Shown one piece after another: positions 14,779 to 60,670 of a DNA stretch of 64,000 nucleotides (positions are counted from its first letter, which is position 1; every line of letters begins with the position of its first letter). The notes under the pieces were generated by a model. That model did no database searches. It saw only the letters and a list, made by a program, of their open reading frames with translations, and had not been told where the DNA came from. The stretch is from Halorhabdus utahensis DSM 12940. GTDB lineage: Archaea; Halobacteriota; Halobacteria; Halobacteriales; Haloarculaceae. Where the stretch lies: assembly GCF_000023945.1 (NCBI RefSeq), contig NC_013158.1:496001-560000 (forward strand). The letters are read 5' to 3'. A program made the position numbers and the translations under genes.

Positions 14779-15468
14779 TCAGTTGTCGTTTGAATCCGAG
14801 CCGTCGGCCGAGTCGTCTTCGTCCGTGTCAACGACGGATTCGTCGACTTTCTCCTCGACCGTTTCTTCGACTTTCTCCTCGACCGTTTTCTCGACGGTTT
14901 CCTCGACCTTCTCCTCGACTGTCTTGCCAACCGACTCGTCGACCGCCGCTTCGACTGTCTCTTCGACAGTTTCACCGACGGTTTCTTCGACCGTCTCCTC
15001 GACGGTTTCCTCGACGGATTCACCCACTGTTTCATCGACTGCCGCTTCGACTGTTTCCTCGACCGTCTCTTCGACCGATTCACCGACCGTTTCGTCGACA
15101 GCCGCTTCGACTGTTTCCTCGACCGTCTCGTTGACTGACTCGCCGACCGTTTCGCCGATCGTTTCCTCGACAGTCTCGCCGACTTGCTGGTCGACCGTTT
15201 CCTTGACGGTGGACTCGACGGTATCACCCACTTGCTTCTCGACCGTCTCGTCGACTGTCTCTTCGACGGTCTGTTCGACGGCCGAAACCATCCAGTCCGG
15301 ATCGTACTGTGACATCTTCCAGGCGACGTGAACGAAGTACGATACCAGCACGCCGATGCCGAACGCGATCCCCACATCGTTGTCAACGACGACAATCAGC
15401 ACAACCGAGACGAAGATCAACGCCCCATAAACGAGGTCAACCAGGGCGTCTGTCTGTTGTTGATTCAT
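14779..15468 (-). CDS. Membrane-anchored V-x-x-T tetrapeptide-repeat protein
   Basis: 229 residues, function unknown. Two hydrophobic segments (about residues 8-28 and 32-52) are separated only by NDVG, so the N-terminus is a hairpin anchor. From about residue 60 a strictly uninterrupted tetrapeptide repeat (Val/Ile, two mostly acidic or small residues, then Thr/Ser/Ala/Lys) runs for at least 37 units, followed by an Asp/Ser-rich tail. Within it a five-unit block beginning VEAA VDET VGES is repeated exactly, and a third variant copy follows later. The start MNQQQTD was chosen because the two membrane segments follow at once; longer frames upstream are antisense shadows. It is convergent with PINA. 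Confidence 0.75.
   Translation of the reverse strand: MNQQQTDALVDLVYGALIFVSVVLIVVVDNDVGIAFGIGVLVSYFVHVAWKMSQYDPDWMVSAVEQTVEETVDETVEKQVGDTVESTVKETVDQQVGETVEETIGETVGESVNETVEETVEAAVDETVGESVEETVEETVEAAVDETVGESVEETVEETVEETVGETVEETVEAAVDESVGKTVEEKVEETVEKTVEEKVEETVEEKVDESVVDTDEDDSADGSDSNDN
14842..15290. repeat. 12-bp/60-bp coding tandem repeats in the tetrapeptide-repeat gene
   Basis: On the minus strand the DNA repeats with a 12-bp period (codons for V-E-E-T and variants) and in part with a 60-bp period, where two adjacent five-unit blocks encode identical peptides. Synonymous differences between units show the array is not brand new. Such arrays can change length by slippage. Confidence 0.8.
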
Positions 15469-25757: not shown

Positions 25758-26303
25758 CTACGGCTCATCATCGAGCAACAGCCCGAGATACGAGGTCCGG
25801 ATCCCATCGGCCGGATCGAGGCCGAGGTCCGCAAGCAGCGCCGTCGCCGACTCACGTGCTGCTTCGACGTCGGCCTCGGTCTCGACGTCGGTCTCGACTT
25901 CGAGGAACTCGCCGAGGTCGGTCACGTCGTCGAGCGTAACGGTGAACTCCCGAAGGGAGTACCGGTGGCGTTCTTTCTCGACGGTGGCAGCCGGTTCGAA
26001 CCCGAGACCGCGGAAAATCGCGTCGGCCGTCTCACCGTCGCCGACCGTCGCCTCGTGTTCCTCACGAGTCTTGGACGCGGCATCGATCTTTGGCCCTTTG
26101 TACGTGATCTTCGCCGTCTCCTCGCCGTGGGCGTGCTCGCGGCGGACTCGTAGTGCCTCGTCGGTCGCGGCAAAGTCCCGGTATGGAGCGTTGTAATACG
26201 TGTCGACCTGCCGGATCGTCCCGAGGGGATCGGCTCCGGCCTCGAGGAGTCGCTCCCTGACGATCCCATGGTCGGCCCGGACTTTGAGTTCGACCTCGTA
26301 CAT
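25758..26303 (-). CDS. CYTH domain protein (CyaB/ThTPase-like)
   Basis: 181 residues forming one CYTH triphosphate-tunnel domain. The N-terminal YEVELKVRA contains the ExExK signature, and a barrel of alternating charged strands follows (RQVDTYYNAP, EALRVRREH, KITYKGPK, TLDDVTDLGEFLEVET). Members are class IV adenylate cyclases, thiamine triphosphatases or inorganic triphosphatases; the archaeal function is not settled. The start is the ATG at 26303 because ExExK must be close to the N-terminus. It is divergent from the FKBP gene, with a 111-bp gap. Confidence 0.85.
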   Translation of the reverse strand: MYEVELKVRADHGIVRERLLEAGADPLGTIRQVDTYYNAPYRDFAATDEALRVRREHAHGEETAKITYKGPKIDAASKTREEHEATVGDGETADAIFRGLGFEPAATVEKERHRYSLREFTVTLDDVTDLGEFLEVETDVETEADVEAARESATALLADLGLDPADGIRTSYLGLLLDDEP

Positions 26304-26414
26304 GACACGGCGGAAGACTCCATCGGGCAAAAACGGCTCGACTCGGCATGTACTGTCTCTCGGGTACGAGTCGGAAACGTTGTCCTTAAGAGCGAAACGA
26401 CTGTCGGTTGGGGT

Positions 26415-27377
26415 ATGAGCGACGATACAGCGGCCGACGAGGCCGACACCGAAGCTGAGCACGACGCCGAATCGAACGGCCTCCAGGACGGGGACTTCGT
26501 TACGGTCGCCTACACGGCCTGGACCGTCGACGGGGGCGACCTCGTCGATACGACCAGCCAGGAAGTCGCCGACGAAGAAGGCGTCGGCGAGGACCAGGAG
26601 TTCGAACCGCGGACGATCGTCCTCGGCGAGGGTCATATCTTCCCGGACGTCGAAGACGACATCACCGGCAAGGAGATCGGCGACGAGGGGTCGGTCGTCG
26701 TCCCGGCCGTCGACGCGTTCGGCGAGTACGACGACGAAGAAGTCCGGACCATCAGCGCCAACAAGATCGACGAGGACGACCGCTACCCCGGTGCGGCCGT
26801 CACCATCGACGGCGAGCAGGGCTACATCGAGACGATCATCGGCGGGCGAGCCCGCGTCGACTTCAACCACCCGCTGGCCGGCGAGGACATCGAGTACGAC
26901 TACGAGATCCTCGACACCGTCGACGACCGCGAAGAGCAGGCCGCAAGCCTGCTCGACACCATGCTCGGCATGGAGCTCGACGTCTGGTTCGAGACCGACG
27001 TCGAAGAGGAAGAGGAGATCGTCGAGGAGGCCGACGACCTCGAAGAAGCTGCGGAGGAAGGAGAAGACGAGGACGGCCCGGTCACCGAAACCGTCGAGGT
27101 CGAGAAGGATACGCTGTACATCGAGGCCACGCCGCAGCTCTCGATGAACCAGCAGTGGATGTTCCAGAAACAGCAGATCGCCCAGCAGTTCGTCGAACTG
27201 CTCGGCGTCGACCGCGTCATCGTCCAGGAGACCCTCGGCGAGGGCGGCGGCATGATGGGCGGCATGGGCGGCATGATGCCCGGCATGGGCGGCGGTGGCG
27301 GCGACCTCGAGGACGCCCTCGAAGACGCCGACGTCGACGCCGACGAACTGGCCGAAGAGCTCGACGTCGAAGAGTAA
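26415..27377 (+). CDS. FKBP-type peptidyl-prolyl isomerase (SlyD-like) with Gly/Met tail
   Basis: 320 residues. An FKBP domain is interrupted by an IF/flap insert as in SlyD: VTVAYTAWTVDGGDLVDTT and VLGEGHIFPDVEDDITGKEIGDEGSVVVPA, then the insert with AVTIDGEQGYIETIIGGRARVDFNHPLAG. A unique acidic region and a further domain follow (PQLSMNQQWMFQKQQIAQQFVELLG). Near the end is a Gly/Met-rich tail (GGGMMGGMGGMMPGMGGGGG) like the disordered tails of chaperonins, then a short acidic helix. It catalyses proline isomerisation and probably acts as a folding chaperone in the cytoplasm. The ATG at 26415 precedes the acidic N-terminus typical of haloarchaea. Confidence 0.9.
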   Translation: MSDDTAADEADTEAEHDAESNGLQDGDFVTVAYTAWTVDGGDLVDTTSQEVADEEGVGEDQEFEPRTIVLGEGHIFPDVEDDITGKEIGDEGSVVVPAVDAFGEYDDEEVRTISANKIDEDDRYPGAAVTIDGEQGYIETIIGGRARVDFNHPLAGEDIEYDYEILDTVDDREEQAASLLDTMLGMELDVWFETDVEEEEEIVEEADDLEEAAEEGEDEDGPVTETVEVEKDTLYIEATPQLSMNQQWMFQKQQIAQQFVELLGVDRVIVQETLGEGGGMMGGMGGMMPGMGGGGGDLEDALEDADVDADELAEELDVEE

Positions 27378-27455
27378 GTCGCCGACATCATTGCCCTTCC
27401 GTTCGCAACGACCGTCGTCGAGCCGGTTTCGCATGAAAAGTGCTGTCTATCCTGT

Positions 27456-56735: not shown

Positions 56736-56795
56736 CGTCTGAACGTTTCGCGTGTATTGGTATCAAACCACCAGGTGCGGAAGTCGGTAAAGAAA

Positions 56796-56855
56796 TCTAT
56801 TTTTCCGAAATCTAGATTTCAGAAATGCAGATTTCCGAAAGACGAGTTTCTGCAG
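56796..56855. repeat. 15-bp tandem repeat array (three good units, a fourth weak one)
   Basis: Units at 56796-56810 (TCTATTTTTCCGAAA), 56811-56825 (TCTAGATTTCAGAAA) and 56826-56840 (TGCAGATTTCCGAAA) each match their neighbour at 12 of 15 positions. A fourth at 56841-56855 is degenerate. A 14-bp perfect palindrome, GAAATCTAGATTTC, spans 56807-56820. The A/T-rich array lies between the broken MgtC-like gene, 60-120 bp upstream of its start, and the stop of the ArfB-like gene. It looks like a regulator-binding array. Confidence 0.7.
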
Positions 56856-56923
56856 TCGATACTGGTATCTGGGGTAGCATATCGTATCAGACGGCAGCAT
56901 ACCTCGATCGAGATGGTCGCCGC

Positions 56924-57706
56924 CTACGATCTGGTCGATACGTGCTCGCGCGGCATGAGGTCCTCGAAGGGCTGTTCGTCCAGCCACTCGGCGAGTGCGA
57001 CGAGTTCGTCGCTGGCCGCGTCGAACAGCTCCGCACCGATCTCGGCGGTCGCCTCAGTTTGGTCCCCGAAAACCCCGTTCTCGCTGTTCTCGATCGAATC
57101 GTAGAACGTGCGAGCGCCGTGGACGCGGCCCACGTCCTGGCTTACCTCGACGCGACCGCCGTCACGTGCGTCTTCGAGGCGGCCCTCGTGGACGAGATCG
57201 GGGTGAAGGTGCTGGATGAGTGCGGTCTCCTTGGGGCCGCCGTGGGGGCCATTGTGGTCGAAGACATCGTTCACCTGCTCGGGAATGCTCTCGTCCCACA
57301 TCCACTCGACAGCGAAGACGGTCCCGTCCTCGCGGAGTCGCCGACCGACCTCTCTGAGATGGGTTATGTTGCCGCCGTGGGCGTTGACGTAGATCACCCG
57401 ATCGATGCCGTGGTTGGTGAGACTTCGGGTGAAGCTCTCGACGTAGTCTCGGAACGCGGGCGGATCGACGGACATCGTCCCCGGGAACTGCTGATGATGG
57501 GGACTCACGCCGATCCGGACTGGTGGCGTCCGCAGGAATCCAGTCCGGTCGGCGGCCTCCGTGGCGAACGCCTCGGCGATGAGGTGGTCAGTCCCCTCCG
57601 GCAGATGTGGGCCGTGTTGCTCGGTCGACCCCAGCGGGATCAGCGCGATCGACTCCGACTCGAAGTACGACGAAAGATCCGGCCACGCGGCGTCGGCGAG
57701 GTACAT
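56924..57706 (-). CDS. Creatininase/ArfB-like amidohydrolase
   Basis: 260 residues. IPLGSTEQHGPHLPEGTDHLIAEAFA, VNAHGGNITHLREVG and the Glu/His in PHGGPKETALIQHLHPDLV are the dimetal motifs of the creatinine amidohydrolase family. In archaea the member ArfB (formamide hydrolase) removes the formyl group in the route from GTP to riboflavin and F420. Because a reductase of the same pathway (51998-52660) is near, ArfB is the likeliest role. The start at 57706 (MYLADAAWPD) is typical of the family. It is divergent from the helicase gene. Confidence 0.82.
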   Translation of the reverse strand: MYLADAAWPDLSSYFESESIALIPLGSTEQHGPHLPEGTDHLIAEAFATEAADRTGFLRTPPVRIGVSPHHQQFPGTMSVDPPAFRDYVESFTRSLTNHGIDRVIYVNAHGGNITHLREVGRRLREDGTVFAVEWMWDESIPEQVNDVFDHNGPHGGPKETALIQHLHPDLVHEGRLEDARDGGRVEVSQDVGRVHGARTFYDSIENSENGVFGDQTEATAEIGAELFDAASDELVALAEWLDEQPFEDLMPREHVSTRS

Positions 57707-57838
57707 ACGCCCGCAAGGAGTCTCGGGGGCAAGAACGTGTCCCCGGATGGAGCGGAAAAAGCGCCGTCTCCCGAGGGACGGGGGCTGTGGACACACCTTC
57801 CAGTGCGTTTAATCGGTTCAACACCCAATACGGCGATA

Positions 57839-60670
57839 ATGAGCGAGGCGACGCGCGAGGGTGACGCCGTCTTCGCCCACCTCGGCGACGCCGTCCGGTC
57901 GGCACTGTCCGACCGCGGCTTTACGACGCCCACCGAGCCACAGCGTCGCGCGATCCCGCCGATCGCCGACGGTGAGGACGCGCTGGTGATCGCCCCGACC
58001 GGCAGCGGCAAGACCGAGACTGCGATGCTCCCGGTCTTCGACGCGATCGAAGGCGATCCACCCGACGGCATCGCCGCGCTGTACGTCACGCCGCTGCGGG
58101 CACTCAATCGCGACATGCGGGATCGCCTGGAGTGGTGGGGTGAGACACTTGACCTCGAGATCGACGTCCGCCACGGCGACACGACCCAGTATCGTCGCCA
58201 GCAACAGGCCGAGGATCCGCCGGACGTTCTGGTCACCACGCCCGAGACCGTGCAGGCGATCCTGACCGGTGAGAAGCTTCGGGAGGGACTCGCAGACGTC
58301 GCCCACGTCGTCGTCGACGAGGTCCACGAACTCGCGGCCGCAAAACGCGGCGCGCAGTTGACCGTCGGCCTCGAACGGCTCCGGGACCTCGCCGGCCCGT
58401 TCCAGCGGATCGGGCTTTCGGCGACCGTCGGCGATCCCGCGGAAGTCGGGCGGTTTCTCACGGGCGATCGGGGATGTTCGATCGTCGAGATCGACGCCGG
58501 CAGCGACATCGAGATCGACGTCGTCCGCCCTTCGATCGAAGAGCGCGACGAGAACGTCGCCGGCGAGATCGTCACCGATGCCGAGGTCGCCAGTCACGTC
58601 AGGCAGATCGACGAACTGATCGAAACCCACGAGTCGACGCTGGTGTTTGTCAACACCCGACAGACGGCCGAAGCGCTGGGCTCGCGACTCAAGGAATACG
58701 GCACGGACGTTGGCATCCACCACGGGTCGCTGGCCTCGGACACTCGCGTCGAGGTCGAGGACGCGTTCAAGGCGGGCGACCTGGACGCGTTGCTGTGTAC
58801 CTCCTCGATGGAGCTCGGGATCGACGTCGGGCGTGTCGATCACGTCGTCCAGTACAACAGCCCCCGGCAGGTCTCCCGGTTGCTCCAGCGCATCGGGCGG
58901 GCGGGCCATCGCCGGGATCGAACGTCCGCAGGGACGATCGTCACGACGAGCCCCGACGAGACCTTCGAGGCGCTCGCCATTGCGCGAATGGCCCGGGCCG
59001 GCGAGGTCGAACCGGCAGCGATCCACCACGGGAGTCGGGACACCGTGGCCAATCAGATCGCGGGCGTCGTCATGGACCTGGGAGAGGTCGACGCCCGCCG
59101 CGCCTACGAGATCGTCACGCGGGCGTACCCCTTTGGCGATATTTCCGAAGCTGTCTTCCGGGAGATCGTGCGTGAACTCGCCGACAATCGCGTCATTTGG
59201 CTCGAGGAAGACGACGACGAGCTCTCGAAACGCCGGGGGACCTGGCAATACTTCTATCACAACCTCTCGATGATCCCCGACGAGGCGACCTACGACGTCG
59301 CCGACGGCACGAGCGGCCGGCAGGTCGGGACGCTGGACGAACGCTTCGTCGTCAACTTCGCCGCGCCGGGGGAGGTGTTCATCCAGGCCGGCGAGATGTG
59401 GCGGATCACCGAGATCGACGAGGACGAGGAGACGGTCCACGTCACGCCGGTCGGCGACCCGGCCGGCGAAGTTCCCTCCTGGACCGGCCAGGAGATCCCG
59501 GTGCCCTACGACGTAGCGCAGGAAGTCGCCGAGCTCCGGGGGGTCGCGGCCGAGCAACTCCGGGCTGGGGGCGAGCCCGAAAGCGTCGCCCGGCACCTTG
59601 CTGGCAGATATGATGCCGCCGAGGCGACGATCCGCTCCGCGCTCGAACAGATCGAATATCACGAGGGACCGGTGCCCGGCCCGAATCGGATCGTCGTCGA
59701 GTTCGAGGGGCGGGACGTCGTGCTTAATGCTGCCTTCGGCCACAAGGTCAACGAGACACTCGGTCGACTCCTCTCGGCACTGCTCGGCCAGCGTACGGGC
59801 TCGTCGGTCGGCCTCGACGTCGACCCGTACCGGATTTCCCTGGAGGTGCCACGCAACGTCACCGCCGGCGACGTCGTCGACGTACTCGAATCGACCGATC
59901 CCGCTCACGTCGAGGGGTTGATCGAACTCAGTCTGAAGAACGCCGGCGCGCTGAAGTTCCGACTCGCGCAGGTCGCCACCAAGTTCGGCGCGCTCAAGAA
60001 CTGGCGTGGGCGAGGGAGCAACCGCTTCGGACGGGATCGGCTGCTCGAAGCACTCGAGGGGACGCCGATCTACGACGAAGCTCTCCGGGAGTTGATCCAC
60101 GAGAAACTCGACATCGACCGGGCGAGCGAGTTACTTCGGGAGATCCAGTCGGGCGACATCGTTGTCGAGACTGTCGGCGGCCGGACGGCGATCGGTCGCG
60201 GCGGCCGCTCGGGCAGCAAGGAACTCCTCGCCCCCGAGAACGCCGACGCGAGCGTGATCCAGACGCTGAAAGACCGGATCCAGGAGGACCGCGTCATCCT
60301 GTTCTGCGTTCACTGTGAGTCCTACAAAACCACCAAACCGGTCAAGCGAGTGCGCGACCAGCCGAAATGCCCGGAGTGTGGCTCGACCCGGATCGCGGCA
60401 TTGAACCCCTGGGACGAGGAGACCGTCACGGCAGTCAAGACCGACGAGAAAGATGACGAGCAGGAACGACGGACGAAACGCGGCTACCAGGCCGCGGATC
60501 TCGTCCAGAGCCACGGCAAACAGGCCATCATCGCGCTGGCAGGGCGCGGCGTCGGGCCGACGAACGCGGCCCGCATCATCAACAAACTCCGGGAGAACGA
60601 GGACGATTTCTACCGGGATATCCTCGCCCGGGAACGCGAGTACGCCCGGACGCGGTCGTTCTGGGAGTGA
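57839..60670 (+). CDS. lhr: Lhr-family ATP-dependent helicase
   Basis: 943 residues, superfamily 2. Walker A APTGSGKT is at 52-59, DEVH at 160-163, motif III LSATVGD, and motifs IV-VI in STLVFVNTRQTAEALG, LLCTSSMELGIDVG and LLQRIGRAGHRRD. A winged-helix and Lhr-core region and the aLhr C-terminal domain follow. Two CxxC pairs (CVHC about residue 822 and CPEC about 848) form a zinc ribbon near the end, and the tail has the YARTRSFWE ending. Lhr helicases translocate 3' to 5' and act in repair. The start at 57839 is upstream of the conserved EPQRRAIPPI; the longer frame overlaps the divergent ArfB-like gene. Confidence 0.93.
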   Translation: MSEATREGDAVFAHLGDAVRSALSDRGFTTPTEPQRRAIPPIADGEDALVIAPTGSGKTETAMLPVFDAIEGDPPDGIAALYVTPLRALNRDMRDRLEWWGETLDLEIDVRHGDTTQYRRQQQAEDPPDVLVTTPETVQAILTGEKLREGLADVAHVVVDEVHELAAAKRGAQLTVGLERLRDLAGPFQRIGLSATVGDPAEVGRFLTGDRGCSIVEIDAGSDIEIDVVRPSIEERDENVAGEIVTDAEVASHVRQIDELIETHESTLVFVNTRQTAEALGSRLKEYGTDVGIHHGSLASDTRVEVEDAFKAGDLDALLCTSSMELGIDVGRVDHVVQYNSPRQVSRLLQRIGRAGHRRDRTSAGTIVTTSPDETFEALAIARMARAGEVEPAAIHHGSRDTVANQIAGVVMDLGEVDARRAYEIVTRAYPFGDISEAVFREIVRELADNRVIWLEEDDDELSKRRGTWQYFYHNLSMIPDEATYDVADGTSGRQVGTLDERFVVNFAAPGEVFIQAGEMWRITEIDEDEETVHVTPVGDPAGEVPSWTGQEIPVPYDVAQEVAELRGVAAEQLRAGGEPESVARHLAGRYDAAEATIRSALEQIEYHEGPVPGPNRIVVEFEGRDVVLNAAFGHKVNETLGRLLSALLGQRTGSSVGLDVDPYRISLEVPRNVTAGDVVDVLESTDPAHVEGLIELSLKNAGALKFRLAQVATKFGALKNWRGRGSNRFGRDRLLEALEGTPIYDEALRELIHEKLDIDRASELLREIQSGDIVVETVGGRTAIGRGGRSGSKELLAPENADASVIQTLKDRIQEDRVILFCVHCESYKTTKPVKRVRDQPKCPECGSTRIAALNPWDEETVTAVKTDEKDDEQERRTKRGYQAADLVQSHGKQAIIALAGRGVGPTNAARIINKLRENEDDFYRDILAREREYARTRSFWE

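Follow-up and report, generated by a model that had tools for sequence, protein, structure and literature searches.

A haloarchaeal membrane-hairpin protein with a strict four-residue valine repeat, encoded beside a CysP-like permease gene in most relatives

Small-xxx-small transmembrane motifs of the glycophorin A (GASright) type read G-V-x-x-G-V-x-x-T, with a four-residue period and right-handed crossing. DUF47/PhoU-like proteins (PF01865) are partners of PiT permeases. Among coiled coils, the expected upper limit of periodicity is about 3.9, the most extreme known case is 3.8 (YadA), and a value of 4.0 is listed outside the accessible range (PMC4786415). The CID region of Sac3 (yeast TREX-2) is a long single helix on which hydrophobic residues recur about every four positions; they form a right-handed stripe, which Sus1 chains wrap around and grip (PMC2726291).

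We analysed a stretch of 64,000 nucleotides of Halorhabdus utahensis DSM 12940 (contig NC_013158.1, positions 496,001 to 560,000; hereafter the window), in which one minus-strand gene (ATG at 15468, stop at 14781–14779; Table 1) encodes a hairpin in residues 1–59, with a C-terminal edge reading WKMSQYDPDW, followed by a four-residue repeat. Over 39 consecutive units (residues 60–215), position 1 is Val in 37, Ile in one and Met in one, positions 2 and 3 are mostly Glu, and position 4 is Thr in 25 units, the remainder being S, A, K or Q; the longest hydrophobic four-step run in 5000 shuffles of the same residues was far shorter (Table 1). A reading made earlier from these letters by themselves (the sequence-only reading) had proposed a two-helix hairpin anchor and a strict four-residue period, and both hold: the hairpin is conserved and predicted as two helices, and the period runs without a break. 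Its description of unbroken V-x-x-T units is right for the hydrophobic residue at every fourth position and too strict for threonine. In DNA, 35 of the 39 12-base units are distinct, and the five-unit block (VEAA VDET VGES VEET VEET) that had been called exact is identical as protein, with merely 50 of 60 bases shared between its two copies; the pattern is therefore old and kept at the protein level rather than a fresh product of DNA slippage. On the plus strand, an S/T-V-rich antisense frame of 182 aa (window 14783–15331) lies open opposite the repeat; its openness is a consequence of how the repeat's codons are arranged, and it was not taken as a gene.

Table 1 Features of the repeat-protein gene, in window positions.
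Feature	Position	Strand	Basis
Whole gene, V-x-x-T hairpin-stalk protein (family 1), 229 aa	14779..15468	minus	Open frame and conserved start MNxxxxD; homologues in 206 of 292 haloarchaeal genomes
Two-helix membrane hairpin (predicted), conserved cytoplasmic edge WKMxxxDPDWM, residues 1–60	15289..15468	minus	Alignment; AlphaFold2 helices 3–27 and 30–54; positive-inside charge pattern
39-unit four-residue repeat, residues 60–215, predicted helical rod	14824..15291	minus	Run of 39 vs shuffle maximum of 9; AlphaFold2 helix; family selection on Val positions
Five-unit block, copy 1, residues 120–139	15052..15111	minus	Protein identical to copy 2; DNA 50/60
Five-unit block, copy 2, residues 140–159	14992..15051	minus	Protein identical to copy 1; DNA 50/60
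Acidic C-terminal tail, residues 216–229 (14 residues)	14782..14823	minus	Sequence; lowest AlphaFold2 confidence

Homologues were identified by a hairpin profile search across genomes of the haloarchaeal class (Table 1); in a phylum-wide sample every match lay within the same order, with none outside haloarchaea, and phage and viral collections held no relative. The protein belongs to a previously unnamed haloarchaeal family (family 1), annotated to date only as hypothetical protein. Pfam and NCBIfam models matched the window protein below cut-off (CdrL_M, EcsC, DUF445, citD and GvpQ), and these identities were rejected because the matches fall on the acidic repeat and reflect composition. Against the PDB, the best hairpin match was a pyrophosphatase segment (E 0.53) and the best repeat match a low-complexity ribosomal protein tail (E 0.007); Foldseek with the AlphaFold2 model gave no match better than E 3.6, and the literal string EETVEETV was not found in published papers.

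Alignment of 19 relatives revealed that 18 of 68 hairpin positions are invariant. The repeat number, whose variation had been suggested as a check, differs strongly among relatives: 127 of them range from 97 to 361 residues, with longest unbroken hydrophobic runs of 5 to 67 units. The mean power spectrum (97 relatives) nevertheless peaks at 3.99 residues, and hydrophobic steps in the family are of four residues in 3521 cases, three in 290, two in 7 and five in 14. Unit position 1 is Val in 97% of 3080 units. In close relatives, Val codons accumulated 0.265 synonymous vs 0.042 nonsynonymous changes per site, with nonsynonymous values of 0.18–0.24 at the other three unit positions and 0.095 in the hairpin, which indicates that purifying selection is strongest at the Val positions. 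Of 580 array indels, 461 change the length by a multiple of four residues, counted over pairs that are not independent. Because unit number varies widely while the register is kept, the geometry of the stripe would matter and the exact length would not, which favours a scaffold over a ruler.

In some relatives 3-4-4-4 steps occur, or the protein closes with a heptad segment and an RPRxDE tail; both fit a helix. In one relative (locus L135, genome G143) the stalk follows a pentadecad pattern, 4+3+4+4 = 15 residues (VEKQVEGVQTQVEETV), and beside relatives with pure four-residue steps it provides a natural series for the study of helix periodicity. Short relatives (115–130 aa; L022, L023, L025, L034 and others) carry only a few units before a heptad segment that ends in RPRxDE; RPR occurs in the C-terminal tail of 49 relatives. 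The hairpin frames at L030 and L159 are truncated or stop-interrupted and are possibly decaying copies.

No function had been described for such a protein when the sequence was first read, and literally this is still so; the main clue, however, lies in gene context, where homologues share operons with a CysP-like PHO4 permease. In a context sample of 80 named loci, of which 77 had the family 1 gene called, a PHO4 permease lies within 2.5 kb in 59. Counted by gene, 32 linked permeases lie downstream in the same orientation, 24 are divergent and 6 convergent; for 20 of the 32 the gap is −7 to +8 nt, often with the hairpin gene 2 nt upstream in one operon. PHO4 genes occur in all 292 genomes at one to seven each, from which we estimate chance adjacency to be near 1%. 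Three annotated plasmids carry the same pair, as a 'hypothetical protein' adjoining an 'inorganic phosphate transporter'. The neighbour permease passes PF01384 (PHO4; 131–147 bits vs a gathering cut-off of 33.7) and scores 142–161 bits against NF053884 (CysP), compared with 18 bits or no match for PitA. The NF053884 equivalog cut-off is 400 bits, so that the score points to the CysP-like (sulfate permease) branch below its curated cut-off and does not establish the substrate. This operon linkage appears to be new and would be the first functional lead for the repeat protein. A UspA gene recurs at 25 of the loci, and an SLC13-like permease is found near the family 1 gene mainly in Natrialbaceae.

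DUF47/PhoU-like proteins resemble family 1 in that a small gene encodes them within the operon of a PHO4-superfamily permease; unlike family 1, a membrane hairpin with a repeat, they are soluble helical bundles with a Pfam profile, and the window protein has no Pfam match to PF01865. DUF47 was found in 15 of 59 haloarchaea. We considered family 1 as its replacement and took the idea no further than a remark: DUF47 is scarce in haloarchaea, yet co-occurs with family 1, for example in the window genome.

A second family has a clearly different hairpin (RGRQTQF...LRVWE[KN]MSIYER) and the same architecture, with a period of 3.99. The two hairpins align in register as distant homologues (hhalign E 3.3e-6, probability 88%). 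Of 14 second-family loci, 8 have a CysP-like permease next to the gene, in most cases upstream of it, which makes this family an independent replicate of the permease linkage. TrkA as a second-family neighbour was seen at one locus only and was dropped.

Given the conserved hairpin, the strongly selected Val repeat, the operon linkage in most relatives and its recurrence in the second family, all directly observed, we put the probability that family 1 is a membrane-anchored accessory (scaffold) of a CysP-like anion permease of the PHO4/PiT superfamily at roughly 55%. The permease superfamily occurs without the family 1 hairpin in about 30% of haloarchaea, so the hairpin is not essential to transport. 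Haloarchaeal physiology gains a possible partner protein for one group of anion permeases; the gene family is common and should be deletable in model haloarchaea.

We then consider how such an accessory might be built. AlphaFold2 with a 36-sequence alignment predicted, after the two hairpin helices, helices at residues 57–127 and 136–212, and the repeat alone without an alignment was again predicted as helix. Confidence in the repeat was modest in both runs (pLDDT about 46–80), and since the short helix breaks differ between them, these breaks were not read as real. Together with the 3/4 hydrophobic spacing, the predictions point to an alpha-helix; beta-branched Val and Thr, and Gly, which is present in 23% of units and often at position 2, are not ideal for one. 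The predicted helix and the family period agree with the right-handed valine stripe, rather than a heptad coiled coil, that the sequence-only reading had put forward. Mean K+R around the hairpin is 1.12 on the N-side, 0.15 in the loop and 1.98 on the C-side; this positive charge at both outer ends, and not in the loop, suggests an N-in/C-in topology, and the repeat is most likely cytoplasmic. The hairpin would thus sit in the membrane with both ends inside, touching the permease, and the repeat would extend as a long acidic cytoplasmic helix, about 23 nm in the window protein if fully helical, with its valines forming a right-handed spiral stripe. Such a stripe may zip rods side by side or be gripped by a partner protein, and the rod may cluster permeases or dock a cytoplasmic partner on them; whether rods coil together, are gripped or dock UspA is speculative.

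Side-by-side assembly must be set against what is described for helix packing. The T-V-x-x-T-V-x-x pattern resembles the G-V-x-x-G-V-x-x-T of glycophorin A, whose contacts, however, are short, two or three turns within the membrane, whereas the family 1 repeat is a soluble acidic segment of about 150 residues. Right-handed coiled coils (hendecad 11/3, pentadecad 15/4 and the YadA stalk, locally 19/5) share the handedness of the stripe, and some relatives have 3-4-4-4 (15/4) steps; the family mean of 3.99, however, lies outside the span of about 3.33 to 3.9 residues per turn and above the accessible limit of about 3.9 (PMC4786415). A rough two-chain model of a 4/1 right-handed coil was clash-free at about 8.0–8.4 Å spacing and a crossing of about 51 degrees, with contact through valine and one neighbouring position. 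The model uses approximate backbone offsets and serves as a plausibility check only; tilt-linked curvature would strain the helices, so it indicates merely that the arrangement is not sterically forbidden, and the modelled continuous 4/1 coil is strongly curved and probably strained. We hold it doubtful that the repeat self-assembles into a continuous right-handed coil whose period is truly four residues, beyond the accessible range, perhaps aided by small Val/Thr interfaces and molar KCl, and that this coil serves as the transporter's cytoplasmic scaffold. For the coiled-coil field, the family offers a natural, widespread and strongly selected period-4.0 sequence on which the published periodicity limit is directly testable.

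A variant of the accessory reading, in which the permease link still holds, would have a single rod gripped by a wrapping partner in the manner of Sac3/Sus1, with the stripe serving as a series of docking sites in tandem rather than for self-assembly. Sac3 is the published precedent (PMC2726291): a single long helix whose hydrophobic residues recur every four positions and form a right-handed stripe, a feature that the predicted helix of family 1 shares. The same picture is fitted by a period of 4.0, beyond what has been published for continuous coiled coils (PMC4786415), and by an array length free to vary, as expected of a tandem track. In Sac3, however, Sus1 wraps two sites of some 25 residues that carry large hydrophobics, whereas family 1 has up to 67 unbroken units, almost all valine, and is membrane-anchored and archaeal, with no known partner. 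The analogy is without sequence support, the gene's neighbourhood yielded no recognisable conserved small wrapping protein, and UspA, the recurrent neighbour, is a globular ATP-binding fold. We judge this arrangement unlikely.

The permease link itself would fall if family 1 were a scaffold of the haloarchaeal membrane or cytoplasm in general, not tied specifically to the permease, its neighbourhood reflecting co-regulation only, for example under salt, sulfate or phosphate stress. Permease genes are universal and the hairpin family is present in about 70% of genomes, and 18 of the 77 loci have no close permease. Linkage is also missing in the lineage of the window: neither the family 1 nor the second-family gene of this genome adjoins any of its five PHO4 genes, its nearest relatives have neither family next to a permease, and two close relatives (G004 and G006) share the DUF302 / PIN-ATPase / purD neighbourhood of the window gene. 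A permease of the linked type is encoded elsewhere in the genome (contig 1002806–1004002; 67% identical to an operon-linked one). The gene has moved away from the permease gene in this species, where a partnership would have to act in trans, and the functional inference for the window copy rests on homology. Against mere co-regulation stand 20 loci with translationally coupled spacing (2 nt or overlapping), the several distinct gene arrangements and the same linkage in a second family, and on balance we consider a general scaffold improbable. The second-family protein of the window genome (L162, L170; contig 726518–726739, minus strand, outside the window) has 168 aa, no Thr and a V/L/A core, and is encoded away from any permease.

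The accessory reading also presupposes a folded repeat. High charge, modest AlphaFold2 confidence, strong length variation and frequent Gly would suit a low-complexity acidic tail that is largely disordered and persists through drift and slippage, and disorder, together with absence of expression, had been named beforehand as an outcome that would overturn the proposal; disorder is disfavoured by the predicted helix, by hydrophobic spacings almost only of 4 or 3, by Val being near-universal at position 1 and the most constrained position in close pairs, by indels that mostly keep register, and by the diversity of the DNA units, so that such a tail is very unlikely. Extended beta-structure (the beta-solenoid or fibre floated in the sequence-only reading) or an external O-glycosylated Thr-rich stalk is the least credible proposal, for although Val and Thr are beta-branched and Gly often occupies position 2, AlphaFold2 gave helix only, with and without alignment, the tolerated irregularity is a helix-compatible three-residue step, some relatives carry heptad or 3-4-4-4 segments, and the charge pattern puts the repeat inside.

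Two further repeats were observed in the window. At 56791–56840, 3.3 copies of an imperfect, AT-rich palindrome (about AGAAATCTAGATTTC) stand in tandem within a GC-rich region and overlap the possible start of a long plus-strand frame (56825–60670). At 27246–27293, within a minus-strand frame (25758–27434), a 21-base repeat reads GGMMPGM in one frame, which we take to resemble the tail of group II chaperonins (putative thermosome).
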